From the IMG/VR virus record IMGVR_UViG_3300010391_000273, positions 1-64,000 of that record: a stretch of DNA of 64,000 nucleotides; one strand, written 5' to 3'. This DNA is from a virus. Positions 35,483-63,540 of this stretch are shown piece after piece; the first letter of the stretch is position 1; each line of letters starts with the position of its first letter. The notes under the pieces are model-generated. The model did no database searches. It saw only the letters and a program-made list of their open reading frames with translations, and was not told the DNA's origin. The translations under genes and the position numbers were made by a program.

Positions 35483-38053
35483 TTAATTGACCCTCGTTCG
35501 TACATTGTTGGATCCTAGGACATAACGCTCTTGGGTTTTTGGCTTCATCCAAGGTTTTGGACCCGAAAATTCAGTACTTGAACGTCTTTCGTCTGAAGCA
35601 TGGGACATGACATAGTAAGCAAGAGCTACAACCGCATGGTCGTCTTTGTGGTCTGCCATAAATTCTGGTCGCTTTTGATCATAGCGCATTTGGGGAAGGG
35701 TCCTAACTAGATAGGGACATCCCTGGTGGCCGTAAGCAAAGAACTGGATTCGTGGGAGGTTTTCTCCAGCTTCTTCGGCTAGGACATTATGGATAGCTGA
35801 TGCAAAGACATCCCGTTTGTTAATGGAGCATTCCATAGGGATACCATTAATCTCATAAATCTCTTTAATGGTACGGATATCAGCTGTTGTGTTGATGTCC
35901 ATGGAAGGATCACAATAAGTGATAGCTACTTTGAAAACTCCAAGGCGGATGTCTTCGTCTTTGATATCTTCTGCAACTTGGGTGGCGGTGGTCTTGTACC
36001 AAATCTTCTCGTTGAAGACGATGTGCCTGTTTCCCAGGTGGGCTATCCATAGAACTACAGTAGGATCAGGGAACCAACCTGAATCGATAGCTCGATAGAC
36101 AGTGGCATATTTAAGTATTTTGGGTAGGTCGAGTTCAGGAGTAACATGGTAGGGCTTTCCTTCTAAAGTAGGTTTAAAGTCGAATAGAGCGTTTTCCATC
36201 GAGAATTCACCATCTACCCAAGCCTTTCTGACATGGGCTGGGAGGCCGGAGAATCTCTTTTTATACTCTATGGGGAGATAAGGGTTGTCTTCCAGGTTGG
36301 CTTTAATGGCGTACCAATCAGCTGGATTGTAGTCACGATCTTCCTCTGGGTCAACAGTTTTGTCTATAAAGTATTCTTGAATCTTCTGAGCTGACATTCC
36401 CATAGGATTTGTTAGGGCTCTAACGAGGGCACCACAATTCATGTTAACAGGGGCTCGGACTGAAGAGGCCAGTTTTCTAAAGTGTTCCCATTCAAAGGTT
36501 GAGACCTCATCAAACAGGGCCAGATAGAACTCACCTCCGAGAAGGTTTAGTACGTCTTCTTCCGTATTACAGTGGGAGAAGAAACCTGCTGAACCATTAG
36601 AATAGGTTAAAATATGTTTAGTTTGATTGTAGGAGGCCCCTAGAAGTTTAGCCTCCCTAGGGATGGCATAAAGGTGGGTATTATGAGTTGGGATAGACGT
36701 GTATCCAATAAGGTATTGATGTGAAGGATGTTCTACTGCAATACACTTACAAATAGTGTCCTCGACTTGTTCACACCCTATGATATAATGATTGCTTGTC
36801 GTTAATCTAGTAATTCTAGTTGATTTATAAGTCTCTAGATTTTTTAGTTTTCTAGGAAGTCTAAAAAGAGGTAAAGAACTTGTCCATTCAACTTTATAGG
36901 CTAATTGACAAACTGACCCATTTAACTTTGGTTGGTATTCTGTAATATTTGGTTTAAATCCAAGAGAAGACACTAATATAAGAACTTGATAAGCAAGGTT
37001 TTTATTCGAATTATAGAAACCAATTAATCCATCTTTTCTTCCATGTCCATCTGTATCTAAAAGTCCTTGTAATAGAGCAAGCCTATTGTCATAACTACTT
37101 ATAAGATAAGCTGCTGGAATATGCTTTTTATTTAAAAGCCCTTGAAGACGAAGTTGTTTTTGTAACCTTAGAATACCATAACCATATTGATTTGATGGTT
37201 GTTTTCTAACTGTGTAACCAAGTTCCACAACGTGTTCAAATATCTCTGGGTCATTTGACGTGATTGCTCCACAGTCTGAAGAACCGTCACCAAGCCATAC
37301 CCCTAGTACATAAGGATTTATAGGAAGGGGTTGATTATTCTGTGTTTGCCATGGTTTTGCAATAGGAATAGAGTGATTGGCTCGTAAACCATCTTCAACT
37401 TTTAATGTATTAAAAATCTCTTGAGTAGTTCGTATTTTTGGTGATGAGTTAATATAGGTTCTGGATTGGGCACCAGACTGTATTCTCTGTTGGCCCGACC
37501 TTTCTCGATGATTTGAGGTGACCCACAAATGACCAGCACTTACAATAAAACTTTCTTTGTTGTCAAACGTTATTTTGTAGGTTCCTTGTACATCAACTTT
37601 AGGAACCGACATACCAATAATTGTCGTGGGAGATCCATCTGGAGCAAAAACTTGATCGCCAATTTCTAAGGTACCCATGGTTTTCATACCATTTGGTGTA
37701 GGAATTAGGGTGTCCAAACTACAGGCTTTTTCAAGCTCGGGGAAAGTCCTTCTTAGAATGACATACTTATAATCTGGAATAGAGAGAGCCCTAATATGAG
37801 CATCCCACCTACCAGTTGTGGACTTGGCAGAACCTCGACCACCATAGAAAAGGACGTTTTCTTCGGTACGTTGGTGATATTCTACACCTTTTTCGGTGGG
37901 AACATAAAGAACCTCATTACCAACGATAACACTACCAACATTACACCATTCACAATTAATAGATGGAGGAATAAACTTATGCCTACCATCTGGAGAAGGC
38001 TTACAAATTTTAACTAGGGGGATTGTAGTAGGATAATATAGCTCGTTAGACAA
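35483..38053 (-). CDS. terL: Large terminase subunit with an intein
   Basis: 856 aa precursor. The extein has an ATPase with Walker A GGRGSAKST (71-79), the RRTFPELEK segment (101-109), Walker B LALFDE (511-516), and nuclease acidic sites near RAIDSGWFPDP, YCDPSMDI and HKDDHAVVALAYY. Residues 111-458 are an intein inserted right after EKA. Removal leaves about 508 aa, normal for TerL. The enzyme pumps DNA into the prohead and cuts it. It overlaps the small upstream gene by 8 bases. Active enzyme requires protein splicing. Confidence 0.92.
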   Translation of the reverse strand: MSNELYYPTTIPLVKICKPSPDGRHKFIPPSINCEWCNVGSVIVGNEVLYVPTEKGVEYHQRTEENVLFYGGRGSAKSTTGRWDAHIRALSIPDYKYVILRRTFPELEKACSLDTLIPTPNGMKTMGTLEIGDQVFAPDGSPTTIIGMSVPKVDVQGTYKITFDNKESFIVSAGHLWVTSNHRERSGQQRIQSGAQSRTYINSSPKIRTTQEIFNTLKVEDGLRANHSIPIAKPWQTQNNQPLPINPYVLGVWLGDGSSDCGAITSNDPEIFEHVVELGYTVRKQPSNQYGYGILRLQKQLRLQGLLNKKHIPAAYLISSYDNRLALLQGLLDTDGHGRKDGLIGFYNSNKNLAYQVLILVSSLGFKPNITEYQPKLNGSVCQLAYKVEWTSSLPLFRLPRKLKNLETYKSTRITRLTTSNHYIIGCEQVEDTICKCIAVEHPSHQYLIGYTSIPTHNTHLYAIPREAKLLGASYNQTKHILTYSNGSAGFFSHCNTEEDVLNLLGGEFYLALFDEVSTFEWEHFRKLASSVRAPVNMNCGALVRALTNPMGMSAQKIQEYFIDKTVDPEEDRDYNPADWYAIKANLEDNPYLPIEYKKRFSGLPAHVRKAWVDGEFSMENALFDFKPTLEGKPYHVTPELDLPKILKYATVYRAIDSGWFPDPTVVLWIAHLGNRHIVFNEKIWYKTTATQVAEDIKDEDIRLGVFKVAITYCDPSMDINTTADIRTIKEIYEINGIPMECSINKRDVFASAIHNVLAEEAGENLPRIQFFAYGHQGCPYLVRTLPQMRYDQKRPEFMADHKDDHAVVALAYYVMSHASDERRSSTEFSGPKPWMKPKTQERYVLGSNNVRTRVN
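36680..37723 (-). mobile_element. LAGLIDADG intein within the large terminase
   Basis: 348 residues. The first residue is Cys (CSLDTLIPTPNGMKTMGTLE), and block B is present (SAGHLWVTS). The homing endonuclease has two dodecapeptide motifs, LGVWLGDGS and LLQGLLDTDGH (residues 250-258 and 327-337). The C-terminal splice motif is HQYLIGYTSIPTHN followed by Thr (+1). All residues needed for splicing are visible: Cys1, the block B His, terminal Asn and Thr+1, though the penultimate residue is His as usual. The insertion lies in the ATPase domain just past the Walker A region. Confidence 0.92.
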
Positions 38054-49438: not shown

Positions 49439-49470
49439 TTTTAAATACTCCCAATAAGTTACAAACTTAT

Positions 49471-49500
49471 AGTCTACTAGATAATAAAGAAGATTGTCAA
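49471..49500 (-). promoter_or_regulatory. Promoter for the LAGLIDADG gene
   Basis: Minus-strand TTGACA (49495-49500), 18-bp spacer, TAGACT (49471-49476), 33 bases before the LAGLIDADG start. Shares the TTGACAAT core with the HNH promoters. Confidence 0.65.
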
Positions 49501-49503
49501 CAA

Positions 49504-49770
49504 GATTAAACTGTTGAAGATCAACAAACCGCCATTCGGACGGGGCTGCAATGCCCCCGACTCCACCATAACAAATTTAATGAGTATGGGGTCGACTTAG
49601 TTTCGACGGGTAGCTTAGTAGTTGATTGGAGGTTTAGTCGTAAGACCCACGAAACGGGTCAACCGATAGTCAACGACTATCAAATGGCAGCGTAAGCTGC
49701 AATCGACTTATAAGGTCTAATCACCTTTAGGTCCGGGTTTTGTGGGTTGTCCTCGGAACAGAATCAACCC
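49504..49770 (+). ncRNA. ssrA: Circularly permuted tmRNA (acceptor piece 49504-49568, coding piece from 49588)
   Basis: The acceptor piece ends TTCGGACGGGG...CGACTCC-ACCA (to 49568), closely like the standard tmRNA 3' end. The coding piece begins GGGGTCG (49588-49594), which pairs with CGACTCC, then has the hallmark TTCGACGGG (49602-49610). Helix 2 pairs GTTGATT (49621-49627) with GATCAAC (49519-49525), and GGTTTAG (49631-49637) with TTAAACT (49506-49512). GATAGTC precedes the tag frame NDYQMAA-stop (49672-49695). It has a GGCAGC-GTAA-GCTGC hairpin and pseudoknot-like stems to about 49770. It rescues stalled ribosomes and tags peptides for proteolysis. The T loop is 6 nt. Confidence 0.82.
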
Positions 49771-49933
49771 TCTTTCAAACAAGTTTTAAGTTTGTGGTGT
49801 CCAGACTCCTTAGAGGAAGAGGAGACACTCCTCACTTAAGCGGCTTAGGCTAGCAGGCTGACAGACGCTGGATGAGAGACCCCTTTGGCGTAATAGCACA
49901 CTAGGCACCACAATCAATAAGGTTAGAGTGTAT

Positions 49934-58794: not shown

Positions 58795-59682
58795 ATGAGT
58801 TACATGCACATAGACCTACTTTACAAGTGCCCAGACATCTTAGCTTTTAAACAACTCTTTGCCTTAGAGAAGATTCATGGGACGAGTGCTCACCTTAGAC
58901 TTAAGCTTGGGGAGATTACCTACTTCTCAGGTGGGGAAAGTCTAGGTAAGTTTAGAGCCTTGTTTGATGATGACAAGCTTCATGAGGCCTTTAAGACTAA
59001 GTTTGGTGAGGCCGATGTAGTTACCATCTATGGTGAGGCCTACGGAGGTAAACAACAGGGCATGAGCCATACCTATGGGCCTGACCTGAAGTTTGTGGCC
59101 TTCGAGGTCAACCTGAACGAGATGTGGCTGAGTGTTCCTCAAGCTCACGACTTCTGTACGAGTTTTGGAATTGAGTTTGTAAGTTATAATCTTGTAAGCT
59201 CAGACTTAGAGACTCTTAATGCTGAGCGTGATTTGCCTTCTGTGCAAGCCGTGAGAAACGGAATTACTGAGCCTAAGCTCCGAGAAGGCATCGTTCTGAG
59301 ACCTCCCTTCGAATGTAAGACTAATAGGGGTAGGCTCATCTCTAAGCATAAGGGTGAGGCTTTTGACGAGCGCGATAAGCCTGTTCACCCTGTCGATCCA
59401 GCAAAAGCTGATGAACAGGTTAAAGCCGAAGCCATCGCCTTTGAATGGGTAACACCTAATAGGCTTGAACATGTAATCGACCATATGGTTGCCATGCGGG
59501 AGGATAAAGAGGTTGGTATGGAAGATGCAACAGCCCTTATTGCTGATATGGTTGAAGACATCACCCGAGAAGGTGCAGGTGAGGTTGAAATGACTCCCAA
59601 ACTCAATAGGAAGGCCATAGGAGCCCAAACAGTGAAGCTTCTTAAGGCTAGACTCCAAGCAAGACTAGAACAAGCATCATGA
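58795..59682 (+). CDS. Rnl2-like RNA ligase, 295 aa
   Basis: Nucleotidyltransferase motifs in order: motif I EKIHGT (adenylated Lys26, the signature of the T4 Rnl2 family), motif III VTIYGEAYGG (about 76-85), motif IV REGIVLRPP (about 163), motif V LISKHKGEAF (about 178). A helical C-terminal domain follows. It seals 3'-OH/5'-phosphate RNA nicks. The stop overlaps the next ligase start (ATGA), so they are made together. Confidence 0.85.
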   Translation: MSYMHIDLLYKCPDILAFKQLFALEKIHGTSAHLRLKLGEITYFSGGESLGKFRALFDDDKLHEAFKTKFGEADVVTIYGEAYGGKQQGMSHTYGPDLKFVAFEVNLNEMWLSVPQAHDFCTSFGIEFVSYNLVSSDLETLNAERDLPSVQAVRNGITEPKLREGIVLRPPFECKTNRGRLISKHKGEAFDERDKPVHPVDPAKADEQVKAEAIAFEWVTPNRLEHVIDHMVAMREDKEVGMEDATALIADMVEDITREGAGEVEMTPKLNRKAIGAQTVKLLKARLQARLEQAS

Positions 59683-60824
59683 CTTTAGATCCTGAGCTAT
59701 TCGATGTCCATGAGAAAGACGGCCTTAGACTTATCATTCCAGCTAGGAATGGGTCTGTAGCCAACGCCCCATGGTCTAAAGAAACTGTTATGTATCGGTC
59801 TAGAGTGGAAACTTTAGAAGGATTAGTTGTTTCTCAAGGCTTTGGTAAGTTCTTCAATTTGGCGACTGGGCCTGATGGTCTAAGGGTCGAGCTTGATGAC
59901 TTGATCAAGGCAACTGAGAAAAGTGATGCTATAGCAACCCTTAAGATCGATGGCTCACTCCTGATTAGGTCGGTTTATAATGGCAAGATCATGCTCAGGA
60001 CTAGGGGCAGCTTTGGGTATGAGTTCTTAGATAACGCCGATGAGATCGACCTCTTTAGAGCTAAGTATCCACTTGTCTTTGATCCTAGCTTATTTGTGGG
60101 TTATAGTCTCCTATTTGAGTGGGTAAGCCCGAGGAACGTAATAGTTCTTAAGTATCCTGAGCCTAACATCATCCTAATTGGGGGTGTGCAGCATACTCCA
60201 GACTTACCATACCTGACGTTTGCCCATAGTCAGTTGGACTTCATTGCAAAACGTTTAAATGTGCCGCTTGTTACCTCCTTTGATTTGACTTCTGAGGGCT
60301 GGGCTGAACTTCATGCAAACTTGGAGTCTAACCAAGAGATTGAGGGTTATGTTATCAGGCTTCATAATGAGCAAGTCTTAGTCAAGGTGAAGTGTGCCCC
60401 ATATTTGACTAAGCATGGGCTTAAATCGACCTTGACAACCGAGAAACTCATCGACATGTGGTTCCAGCAGGGATCACCTGATTATCAAGCTTTTTGTGCA
60501 ACTTTCCTTGCAAGTTTTGACGAGGAAACCTTTATGTGGACCTTGGGGGCTATCTCAAGTCTCTTTGATGGGATTAGAACCCTAACCAAGATCATGAACC
60601 ATATGGGCGGTAAAGTCGAGGTTAGGAAGAATTGGCCTAGAAAAGAAGCTGCCCTAGCTGGGCTAGCCGAGTACGGTCAAACTAAGAGATTCTCGGCTTA
60701 CATGAACTTGTGGGAAGGTAAACAGCCTAGCTTTGATTTGCTTAAATCGCTTCTGTTGCAAAATACCAAGCAGGTCGAAATTGAAATGTTCAAGGCTACA
60801 GGCCCAGCTATTTTAGGAGATTAA
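59679..60824 (+). CDS. Rnl1-like RNA ligase, 381 aa
   Basis: Motif I ATLKIDGSLL (Lys89 adenylated), preceded by VVSQGFGKFFNLAT as in T4 Rnl1 family members. Motif III LLFEWVSPRN, motif IV EIEGYVIRL and motif V LVKVKCAPYL follow. The remaining C-terminal part is helical. It joins 5'-phosphate and 3'-OH RNA ends; T4 Rnl1 repairs tRNA cut by host anticodon nucleases. No polynucleotide kinase partner is visible in the window. Confidence 0.85.
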   Translation: MTLDPELFDVHEKDGLRLIIPARNGSVANAPWSKETVMYRSRVETLEGLVVSQGFGKFFNLATGPDGLRVELDDLIKATEKSDAIATLKIDGSLLIRSVYNGKIMLRTRGSFGYEFLDNADEIDLFRAKYPLVFDPSLFVGYSLLFEWVSPRNVIVLKYPEPNIILIGGVQHTPDLPYLTFAHSQLDFIAKRLNVPLVTSFDLTSEGWAELHANLESNQEIEGYVIRLHNEQVLVKVKCAPYLTKHGLKSTLTTEKLIDMWFQQGSPDYQAFCATFLASFDEETFMWTLGAISSLFDGIRTLTKIMNHMGGKVEVRKNWPRKEAALAGLAEYGQTKRFSAYMNLWEGKQPSFDLLKSLLLQNTKQVEIEMFKATGPAILGD

Positions 60825-60826
60825 AG

Positions 60827-61606
60827 ATGCCTAGTGTGAATCTAAAGATTGCCAAAGTCGCTCTGACCCCGACGAACTATGAGACAGGCCACTTACTGCG
60901 GGAGCTTATGATCGAGAGAGGGATTACCTTAGACAAGAATAGCCCTATCACAATCTGCTATGGATTACCTTCTGAAGCCTCTAAGTGTCTAAACGGCAAT
61001 GTGGGTGGGGGAGATAAGATTTTAAGATTGAAACAGATGGAAGAGGGTGGAGTACGAACCATTCCGTGGTTTGATGGAAGGAATCTTTCAACAACTGGCG
61101 TACCCATGAGCTTTAAGTTTCCAGCCCTCGCAAGAGCTATCTCAGGTCATGGTGGAGAAGATATCATGCCTGTCTTTCAGGCTCAAGAGATCCCATGGCG
61201 AGTTGCTGCGGGGTTTGCATGGTTCTCAAGTTATGTACCCTTTACGACTGAATATAGGGTGTGGACCTTTAGGGGTAAGATCCTGGATGTGTACGAGAAG
61301 ACAATGGCTCGGCCGGATGAATATAAGTTCGTAGCTGGTAGGAACTTTAGACAGGGATTTGAGTTTACAAAGGTCACTAATTTCCCTGAGGAAGAAGTTA
61401 AGATTCAAGCTGGAAGGGTCTTGAAGGCCTGTAAGTTTGACTTCGCAGCTATTGATATGCTTCATGGTGAAGACGAGAAGGTCTATGTCCTCGAAGCTAA
61501 CACAGCCCCAGGAGTCATCCGGTCAGGTTGCAAGCCTACGCTTGAAAAGCTTGTTGACTGTATGGCGGGTTGGGTTCATGACGGATGCCCAGTGCGAGGT
61601 TACTAG
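60827..61606 (+). CDS. ATP-grasp ligase 1 (RimK/Ddl-like), 259 aa
   Basis: Starts 2 bases past the RNA ligase stop. The ATP-grasp C-terminal metal motif is VYVLEANTAPGVIRSG; the central part holds YRVWTFRGKILDVYEKTMAR. ATP-grasp enzymes couple acids to amines through acyl-phosphates. Length suits the ATP-grasp domain with a reduced N-domain. A peptide, amino-acid tag or nucleobase adduct are possible substrates; neighbours do not decide. Confidence 0.75.
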   Translation: MPSVNLKIAKVALTPTNYETGHLLRELMIERGITLDKNSPITICYGLPSEASKCLNGNVGGGDKILRLKQMEEGGVRTIPWFDGRNLSTTGVPMSFKFPALARAISGHGGEDIMPVFQAQEIPWRVAAGFAWFSSYVPFTTEYRVWTFRGKILDVYEKTMARPDEYKFVAGRNFRQGFEFTKVTNFPEEEVKIQAGRVLKACKFDFAAIDMLHGEDEKVYVLEANTAPGVIRSGCKPTLEKLVDCMAGWVHDGCPVRGY

Positions 61607-61607
61607 A

Positions 61608-61799
61608 ATGATCATCCTTACTAAAAAAGATTTAGTAGAGGCATTATCCAAGTATCCAGATGACGCTGTAGTTTCAATCAGCGATGCTGATACTGGCTGG
61701 GACATGAATATTGATACTATAGTAAAAGAAGAAAGAGAACAAAAAACCTTGCTATCTTTTATTCCTTCTGGCTATAATGCAGACTTTCGAATGGAATAA
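61608..61799 (+). CDS. Small protein, 63 aa
   Basis: ATG at 61608, just past the ATP-grasp stop. MIILTKKDLVEALSKYPDDA then VVSISDADTGWDMNIDTIVK. Similar short proteins (phage DUF-type, EALSKYPDD) occur in phages without known function. Confidence 0.55.
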   Translation: MIILTKKDLVEALSKYPDDAVVSISDADTGWDMNIDTIVKEEREQKTLLSFIPSGYNADFRME

Positions 61800-61802
61800 A
61801 CC

Positions 61803-62534
61803 ATGGTTACACTTCTATATCATTCTAAACAGATTGGGTACATTTGCAAGCGGATCGCAGATACTAATCCTGAGAAGCTCCGGGCGGTCTGTGACAAGAC
61901 ACTTCCAAATGCTATGATGGATTATGGCACCATCGTTCGATGGGACTCAGTTCACCCACTAGGTGCTCATAAGACGATTAACACGGCTGAAGCTGTAACC
62001 CTATCTAGAAACAAGCACGATTCAAGATTTAAGCTTCTAGACTTGTGTCCTACAACTTGGGATGATGCTAGTTATCTTGAATACCCATGCCTAATTCGGC
62101 CTAAAAAGCATTTTGCAGCCCATAAGTTCTTTGTAGTCAAGACTAAGCTTGAAGCTAAGCGGGCTATCAAGCGGTGTGGGCGTGGTTGGTATGCGAGCCC
62201 TTTAATCGACAAGAAGCTTGAGTATAGAGTGTTTGTCCTGAATGGCAAGGCTTTCAAGATGGTTAGGCGATTCCACACCGATCCTAATCAGGTTGCTTGG
62301 AACATTGCCAACGGTGGGACGAGTGTTAGGATTATGAAGGAATCTTGGCCAGCGAACGTTGCTACGATTGCTGTTGAGGCTGGGAAGCTTCTAGGACTTG
62401 ATTGGTATGCTGCTGATGTGATTGTTGATCAAGCTGGTAAGCCCTATGTCCTCGAACTTAACACGGCCCCAGGCCTAGCTCGCGATCTTACGATTACTAA
62501 CCTTGCAAAACTGTTTGTAAAGTGTGGAGCCTAA
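61803..62534 (+). CDS. ATP-grasp ligase 2, 243 aa
   Basis: Metal/ATP motif PYVLELNTAPGLARDL near the C-terminus and PCLIRPKKHFAAHKFFVVKT in the N-half (the ATP-binding lysine strand). KKLEYRVFVLNGKAFKMVRR is the usual substrate-side strand. It is related to the gene at 60827 and probably a paralogue. Two ATP-grasps in series suggest two coupling steps. Confidence 0.75.
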   Translation: MVTLLYHSKQIGYICKRIADTNPEKLRAVCDKTLPNAMMDYGTIVRWDSVHPLGAHKTINTAEAVTLSRNKHDSRFKLLDLCPTTWDDASYLEYPCLIRPKKHFAAHKFFVVKTKLEAKRAIKRCGRGWYASPLIDKKLEYRVFVLNGKAFKMVRRFHTDPNQVAWNIANGGTSVRIMKESWPANVATIAVEAGKLLGLDWYAADVIVDQAGKPYVLELNTAPGLARDLTITNLAKLFVKCGA

Positions 62535-62538
62535 TCTA

Positions 62539-63540
62539 ATGCCACTAGATCCTACAACTATTGTAACCCCAAGTATACCTAGTCTAACAATAGATGCCCA
62601 TCTTGACACTCCTTGGATTGGGACCAAGGTGAGAGCTGCTAATAATGGAATAGGGTTCTATTTGCGTGAGGGTCATGAACAGTCATTGTTTACAATCGAT
62701 GCGGCTCATGAAGGTGGGCTCAAAGCTGCTATCTTTGCCCTTTATCTTTCGGATGTGTGGCAAGATGCACATACTGAAGCTGAAGCATTTGAGGAACTCC
62801 GTATCCAACGAAATAGGTTGATAAATGGTTTTCGTGTTTTGTTTCCGAATCCCAATCATAATTTTAACTTAGAGCATTTTCTACAAGATGTAAATGATGC
62901 TCCTGATTGGTTCCCAGTACTTCTTGGTTTGGAAGGTGGAAGACTCATTCATAATAGTCTTGATAGACTTAAGACTTATGCTGAATGGGGTATAAGATAT
63001 CTTACACTCACACACAATAGAAATACAAATTGGGCTGACTCAGCTACCGATTTTGAACATATTGGTGGTCTCTCCGGTTTTGGAAGAGACGTTATTAAGA
63101 AGTGTAATGAGCTTAATATTCTAGTTGATGTATCTCATGCTTCGGATCATACAGCTTATGATGCTATAGATATTTCTACTAAGCCTGTGATTGCTTCACA
63201 CTCAGGTGTTAGAAGTCTTGTTAAGCAACCTAGAAATCTTTCAGACTCCTTAATTAAGCGAATTGCTCAAACAGGCGGGATTATATGTGTGCCATTTGCG
63301 AAGCGGTTTATGGGTCACTATAAGGTAAGTGACCATATCAACTATATCGTGGATTTGGTTGGGGTTAATCATGTAGGGATTGGGTCTGACATTGATGGGG
63401 CCGTGTTGATTCCTGGGTTCACTAGTATCACTCAATGGAAAGATACTATTGTTCCAGACTTAATGGGTGCAGGTTGGAGTCAAGTTGACATCGACAAGAT
63501 CCTAGGTGGGAACCTCTTGAGAGTCTTAAAGAATGCCTAA
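62539..63540 (+). CDS. Membrane dipeptidase-like peptidase (M19), 333 aa
   Basis: ATG at 62539; the preceding stop is at 62532-62534. Metal ligands by family pattern: TIDAHLDTPW (H21, D23), LLGLEGGRLI (E about 131), VDVSHASDHT (H about 201), IASHSGVRSL (H about 222) and IGSDIDG (D about 287). This is the zinc dipeptidase TIM barrel. It hydrolyses dipeptides, including D-amino acid types. Presence after two ATP-grasp ligases in a phage is unusual. Confidence 0.85.
   Translation: MPLDPTTIVTPSIPSLTIDAHLDTPWIGTKVRAANNGIGFYLREGHEQSLFTIDAAHEGGLKAAIFALYLSDVWQDAHTEAEAFEELRIQRNRLINGFRVLFPNPNHNFNLEHFLQDVNDAPDWFPVLLGLEGGRLIHNSLDRLKTYAEWGIRYLTLTHNRNTNWADSATDFEHIGGLSGFGRDVIKKCNELNILVDVSHASDHTAYDAIDISTKPVIASHSGVRSLVKQPRNLSDSLIKRIAQTGGIICVPFAKRFMGHYKVSDHINYIVDLVGVNHVGIGSDIDGAVLIPGFTSITQWKDTIVPDLMGAGWSQVDIDKILGGNLLRVLKNA

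Follow-up and report, generated by a model that had tools for sequence, protein, structure and literature searches.

A predicted circularly permuted two-piece tmRNA gene with AAC at the resume position in a divergent phage

Identification and anatomy of the gene

We found a locus on the plus strand of this phage record (98,575 bases, the first 64,000 of which are the stretch analyzed here and referred to as the window) that is very probably a circularly permuted ssrA gene of the alphaproteobacterial and phage two-piece type, likely to act as a functional tmRNA by means of host factors. In a cmscan search of the whole 64-kb window against all Rfam families, to which the E values refer, only two families exceeded their cut-offs, and both did so at this locus: RF04321 (tmRNA_permuted; 69 bits versus a cut-off of 47, E value of 3.5e-11, positions 49507-49695) and RF01849 (alpha_tmRNA; 55.4 bits versus a cut-off of 50, E value of 1.3e-12, positions 49463-49773). 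A preliminary description of the DNA had proposed a two-piece permuted tmRNA in a phage and had pointed to the two-piece Rfam models as a check; the proposal was right, since RF04321 and the alphaproteobacterial model both exceed their cut-offs and all the elements described are present. The other two-piece models did not reach theirs, neither the betaproteobacterial RF01850 (34 bits versus 84) nor the cyanobacterial RF01851 (31.9 bits versus 70). ARAGORN did not report the tmRNA gene; as RF04321 detects what this program misses, counts of phage tmRNAs based on ARAGORN only may be too low.

The anatomy of the gene is complete, comprising an acceptor piece with its CCA, a spacer, a GGGG...TTTCGACGGG coding piece, helices between the pieces, a tag, and a terminal hairpin, all on the plus strand. 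The acceptor (3') piece, located by the RF04321 and RF01849 matches and the sequence itself, spans 49504-49568 (the 5' boundary is approximate) and finishes with the acceptor 3' strand CGACTCC (49558-49564), the discriminator A (49565), and an encoded CCA (49566-49568). It is followed by an intervening sequence of 19 nt (49569-49587), expected to be removed in processing, and by the coding (5') piece (49588-49773), whose 3' end, taken from the end of the RF01849 match at 49773, is approximate (about 49770-49773). GGGGTCGACTTAGTTTCGACGGG begins at 49588, directly after the spacer, and the acceptor 5' strand GGGGTCG plus a D-loop-like ACTTAGTTTCGACGGG occupy 49588-49610, as seen in the sequence and with RF01849. 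The arrangement first described, a CCA piece ending at 49568 and lying 19 bases before the GGGGTCG piece, is thus seen directly in the sequence. Positions 49588-49594 pair with 49558-49564 in a full 7-bp acceptor stem, in which the G3-U70 pair and the discriminator A for AlaRS are present. The T arm, GGGGC-TGCAAT-GCCCC (49542-49557), has an intact 5-bp stem and, as had been noticed, a loop one base under seven. A T loop of 6 nt is also seen in another five virus contigs (L003, L019, L033, L054, and L069, among about 107 listed sequences), and many of the listed relatives have T loops of the form TGC(A/G)AT(A/T).

Two blocks of helix 2 join the pieces. The distal one has 9 bp, formed by GATTAAACT (49504-49512) and GGTTTAGTC (49631-49639), and is supported by covariation; the middle one has 7 bp, formed by GATCAAC (49519-49525) and GTTGATT (49621-49627), while the proximal block near GGAC pairs more weakly. 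With 7, 9, and 7 bp formed, the acceptor stem and both helix 2 blocks do pair in the permuted order, as originally claimed. The duplex energy of the helix 2 arms (-18.0, versus a shuffle mean of -15.5) is not significant, 368 of 2000 shuffles being equally good; hence, the case rests on covariance models and comparison rather than on thermodynamics.

For this comparison, IMG/VR was scanned with a pattern for the permuted order that allowed a spacer of 5-35 nt and that fixed G3-U70 in the relatives, which returned at least 120 stretches. Covariation was assessed across 110 non-identical sequences, one of them from the window, two from bacterial loci, and all others from viruses. Both acceptor pairs left free by the pattern were paired in all 110 listed sequences, with four pair types. 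Five of the six distal helix 2 pairs were formed in 84-90% of the 110 listed sequences and the sixth in 60%, with A-U, U-A, G-C, C-G, and G-U as pair types, and the register GATCAAC/GTTGATT of the middle helix was not conserved in this alignment.

A one-piece tmRNA, next to which the upstream acceptor piece would be a product of chance or a tandem remnant, is extremely improbable. RF00023, the one-piece model, had no match at the locus (elsewhere in the phage genome it gave just 9.2 and 5.4 bits, where ARAGORN calls a tRNA), and no CCA-bearing acceptor lies downstream, where the sole GACTCC (49804) lacks a CCA; the one-piece alternative weighed in the preliminary description therefore failed. 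We counted GTTTCGACGGG in its favor, as we take this element to resemble one-piece tmRNAs too. The TAGTC motif, shared with the one-piece tmRNA of Escherichia coli (PMC2481249), also speaks for it.

The tag frame and its resume codon

In E. coli, frame setting depends on the UAGUC before the resume codon, with A86 essential at position -4 (PMC2481249). The two-piece gene of the phage has TAGTC at exactly 49667-49671 (T at -5 and A at -4), as in E. coli, so that the resume codon would be AAC. GTC was also considered as the resume codon and rejected, since it would place a G at -4. The frame that follows (49672-49695) is AAC GAC TAT CAA ATG GCA GCG TAA, or NDYQMAA-stop, and terminates in the standard Ala-Ala-stop; the preliminary description was correct about AAC following ATAGTC and about the tag ending in MAA. 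The resume codon is alanine "in most cases" (PMC3968760), a usual feature and not a strictly defining one. At this locus, the Ala (sometimes Gly) codon is absent and AAC stands in its place.

A hairpin at the position of PK1, GACCC-ACGAAAC-GGGTC (49644-49660), is evident in the sequence and also in the co-fold; the 11 nt separating it from the resume codon are the same spacing as in L110. Within the folds downstream, the stop codon is contained in a post-tag hairpin, GCAGC-GTAA-GCTGC (49687-49700), beyond which there is another hairpin (GACTTATAAGG...CCTTTAGGTC, 49705-49733). The RF01849 alignment places a terminal hairpin, GGGTTG...CAACCC, at 49744-49770; its conserved loop motif GGAACAGAA agrees with the alphaproteobacterial and phage relatives.

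The resume codon itself is found in the loop of a 7-bp hairpin, GATAGTC-AAC-GACTATC (49665-49681). We dropped this hairpin as a special feature, since nine other compared tmRNAs, including that of L131 (Hyphomicrobiales) and several of viral relatives, have 7-bp counterparts, a recurrence that suggests an ordinary feature of the subtype. For the A86C mutant of E. coli, it has been proposed that inactivity results from a helix enclosing the resume codon (PMC2481249); on this view, use of the codon would require the hairpin to be opened. What remains unusual is the AAC at the resume position and the very short tag.

Automatic assignment gave GCN as the resume codon in 92 of 108 listed sequences, the remainder being assignment errors or GGC, GAC, and GTC; viral relatives also have GAC at the resume position, with GTC as a candidate in two. 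Three sequences (L098, L108, and L116) were automatically assigned AAC, but an in-frame GCA fits better on inspection, which leaves AAC unique to the window among the approximately 105 relatives listed. The best-scoring of the compared relatives, L003 (IMGVR_UViG_3300023215_000989), has the same T stem, GGGGC/GCCCC, and the same 6-nt T loop but differs in its tag (ANDNQAYEDYALAA), its GCC resume codon, and its 30-nt spacer. No bacterial genome was found that combines the permuted order with both GTTTCGACGGG and GGGGNCGAC. A looser pattern recovered four bacterial loci, of which L131 is of a clean alphaproteobacterial type. It reads ATAGTT GCC AAC GAC AAC TAT, whereas the window reads ATAGTC AAC GAC TAT and is two codons shorter, lacking the Ala codon and one more at the start of the tag; the hairpin around the resume codon is retained in both.

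Alternatively, the gene might be a decaying or newly captured permuted ssrA that keeps the fold and tags inefficiently, because the Ala resume codon has been lost and the T loop shortened. An AAC unmatched among the approximately 105 relatives listed and a tag start without the two codons of L131 are in line with this scenario, which we nevertheless consider unlikely: no structural element that was checked is broken, Ala-Ala-stop is still found at the end of the frame, the absence of two codons leaves both arms of the resume hairpin perfectly paired, and other virus contigs also have 6-nt T loops.

Long tags were also seen in the comparison. In four viral permuted tmRNAs (L034, L043, L059, and L073), the tags are related and have 22-25 residues (ANTKALGFADLTVGMSELRLAA is an example), and L107 and L120 have another common tag, of 29 residues. 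A gammaproteobacterial genome contig (L130, Dyella sp. AtDHG13) contains a permuted tmRNA with the tag ANDNVYDQAIAA.

Known systems and the phage carrier

Two-piece tmRNAs of this type have been described before, both in alphaproteobacteria and in other phages, most of them marine. Of 133 tmRNA structures from phages, 53 were reported in 2022 to be two-piece, and of these 50 were marine or aquatic (PMC9004378). The rarity in phages that the preliminary description had implied was therefore mistaken, given this publication and the at least 120 IMG/VR stretches. To judge from the sequences compared, what is new here is the divergent phage carrier and the AAC resume codon, without a match among the approximately 105 relatives listed. 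Resemblance to the RF01849 type, as in L131, extends to the acceptor, helix 2, the resume-codon hairpin, and the terminal GGNAACAGAA-type hairpin; in contrast, GTTTCGACGGG replaces the consensus GGATCGACG, the tag is shorter, and the Ala resume codon is absent. Among phages, the record of the Methylophilales phage Melnitz (MZ577097) is annotated with SsrA, which likewise has the permuted order, the alphaproteobacterial type, and a tag ending in Ala-Ala. However, Melnitz is a myophage whose ssrA is accompanied by a glutamine riboswitch, whereas in this phage no riboswitch and no DNA match to Melnitz were found, and the 6-nt T loop and the AAC resume codon set its tmRNA apart. A blastn search of the tmRNA against INPHARED matched no record.

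The phage itself is very divergent by sequence comparison. A DNA search of INPHARED with the 12 kb around the tmRNA gave no match, and in IMG/VR no relatives were found of the portal or of the 579-amino-acid protein encoded downstream, and two were found of the terminase; none of these searches yielded a close relative of the phage that would point to selection maintaining the tmRNA gene. Searches of structure databases with three virion proteins returned nothing usable. That this is a short-tailed phage, as was first stated, is not demonstrated, since the portal and the large virion proteins have almost no recognizable relatives; the hints of a short tail are weak, namely a match to the phrog_332 adaptor and a distant resemblance of the capsid protein to that of Myxococcus phage Mx8. 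A search for T7-like RNA polymerase or phrog_332, as signs of short-tailed carriers, in 24 virus contigs with permuted tmRNAs gave no match, and neither did the controls, so that this outcome carries no weight.

Several other genes of the phage deserve mention. The terminase large subunit (window 35483-38053, minus strand) appears to hold an intein: it has a LAGLIDADG_3 match at residues 324-376, and its homologs in L123 and L124 have about 340 fewer codons across the same residues. A family A DNA polymerase is fused to an N-terminal uracil-DNA-glycosylase domain (L126:11743-14556, genome 93743-96556). Two RNA ligase-like proteins and a T4-type polynucleotide kinase (window 58795-60824 and L125:12769-13638 of the phage genome) form an RNA repair set, which suggests repair of tRNAs cut by host defense. 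Three tRNAs are predicted in the phage; one of them, a tRNA-Ile with anticodon UAT (L125:1144-1239, genome 65144-65239; 96 nt), has an unusually long variable arm, unlike ordinary Ile tRNAs. An ATP-grasp-like cluster with an M19 dipeptidase and a phiEco32-type COOH-NH2 ligase (window 60827-63540 and L125:1545-2516) is possibly a peptide-conjugation pathway. Between the tmRNA and the 579-amino-acid gene, a non-coding stretch (49789-49916, plus strand) has a 10-bp closing stem, TTGTGGTGTC...GGCACCACAA; the fold z-score for 49773-49922 is just -1.6, and the stretch has no Rfam match.

Possible role during infection

Both pieces would most likely be transcribed as a single precursor. A promoter-like site, GTTACA-16-GATAAT (49458-49485, plus strand), which scored 9/12 in a consensus scan, lies ahead of the acceptor piece, although with three such sites found versus 1.4 expected this is weak evidence; the scan found no strong promoter or terminator at the locus. 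Host RNase P would cut the precursor at about 49588, host 3'-end enzymes would trim it at the encoded CCA (49568), and the acceptor and coding RNAs would be held together through the 7-bp acceptor stem and helix 2. Host AlaRS, recognizing G3-U70 and A73, and host SmpB would then make the tmRNA active. No recognizable SmpB gene was found in the 98.6-kb phage record, and the tmRNA probably works with the SmpB, AlaRS, and RNase P of the host. During infection, it could rescue ribosomes stalled on broken or non-stop mRNAs and add Ala-NDYQMAA, a short tag with an MAA end suited to host proteases. The phage might benefit from ribosomes being kept free, from the recycling of host proteins, or from the displacement of the host tmRNA.

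The RNA might instead be a tmRNA-derived inhibitor or SmpB decoy that is charged, binds SmpB, and titrates or replaces the host tmRNA rather than tagging proteins for destruction. The tmRNA of mycobacteriophage DS6A, which is tag-less, is proposed to have such a role (PMC4131195; PMC11915505); it shares with ours a phage-borne tRNA-like domain, and the lack of a recognizable phage SmpB also favors a decoy. Unlike DS6A, which has no tag frame, this tmRNA keeps a full one along with the frame-setting motif and the stop codon, and we regard a decoy as slightly less probable still than the decay considered above.

A tmRNA that tags through host factors remains our preferred reading, and it adds a divergent phage lineage to the carriers of two-piece tmRNAs. 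Counting against it are the T loop with its missing base, AAC in place of an Ala or Gly codon, shuffled helix 2 arms that pair nearly as well, and the failure of the scan to find a strong promoter or terminator. The most specific version of it, a natural, working tmRNA of a short-tailed phage that resumes on the Asn codon AAC, in the 3-nt loop of a 7-bp hairpin, and adds the short tag NDYQMAA, is one that we put forward tentatively and regard as rather doubtful. The gene nonetheless offers a natural variant of the resume codon that is open to direct testing and, if resumption on AAC is true, the Ala resume codon would be dispensable in nature.
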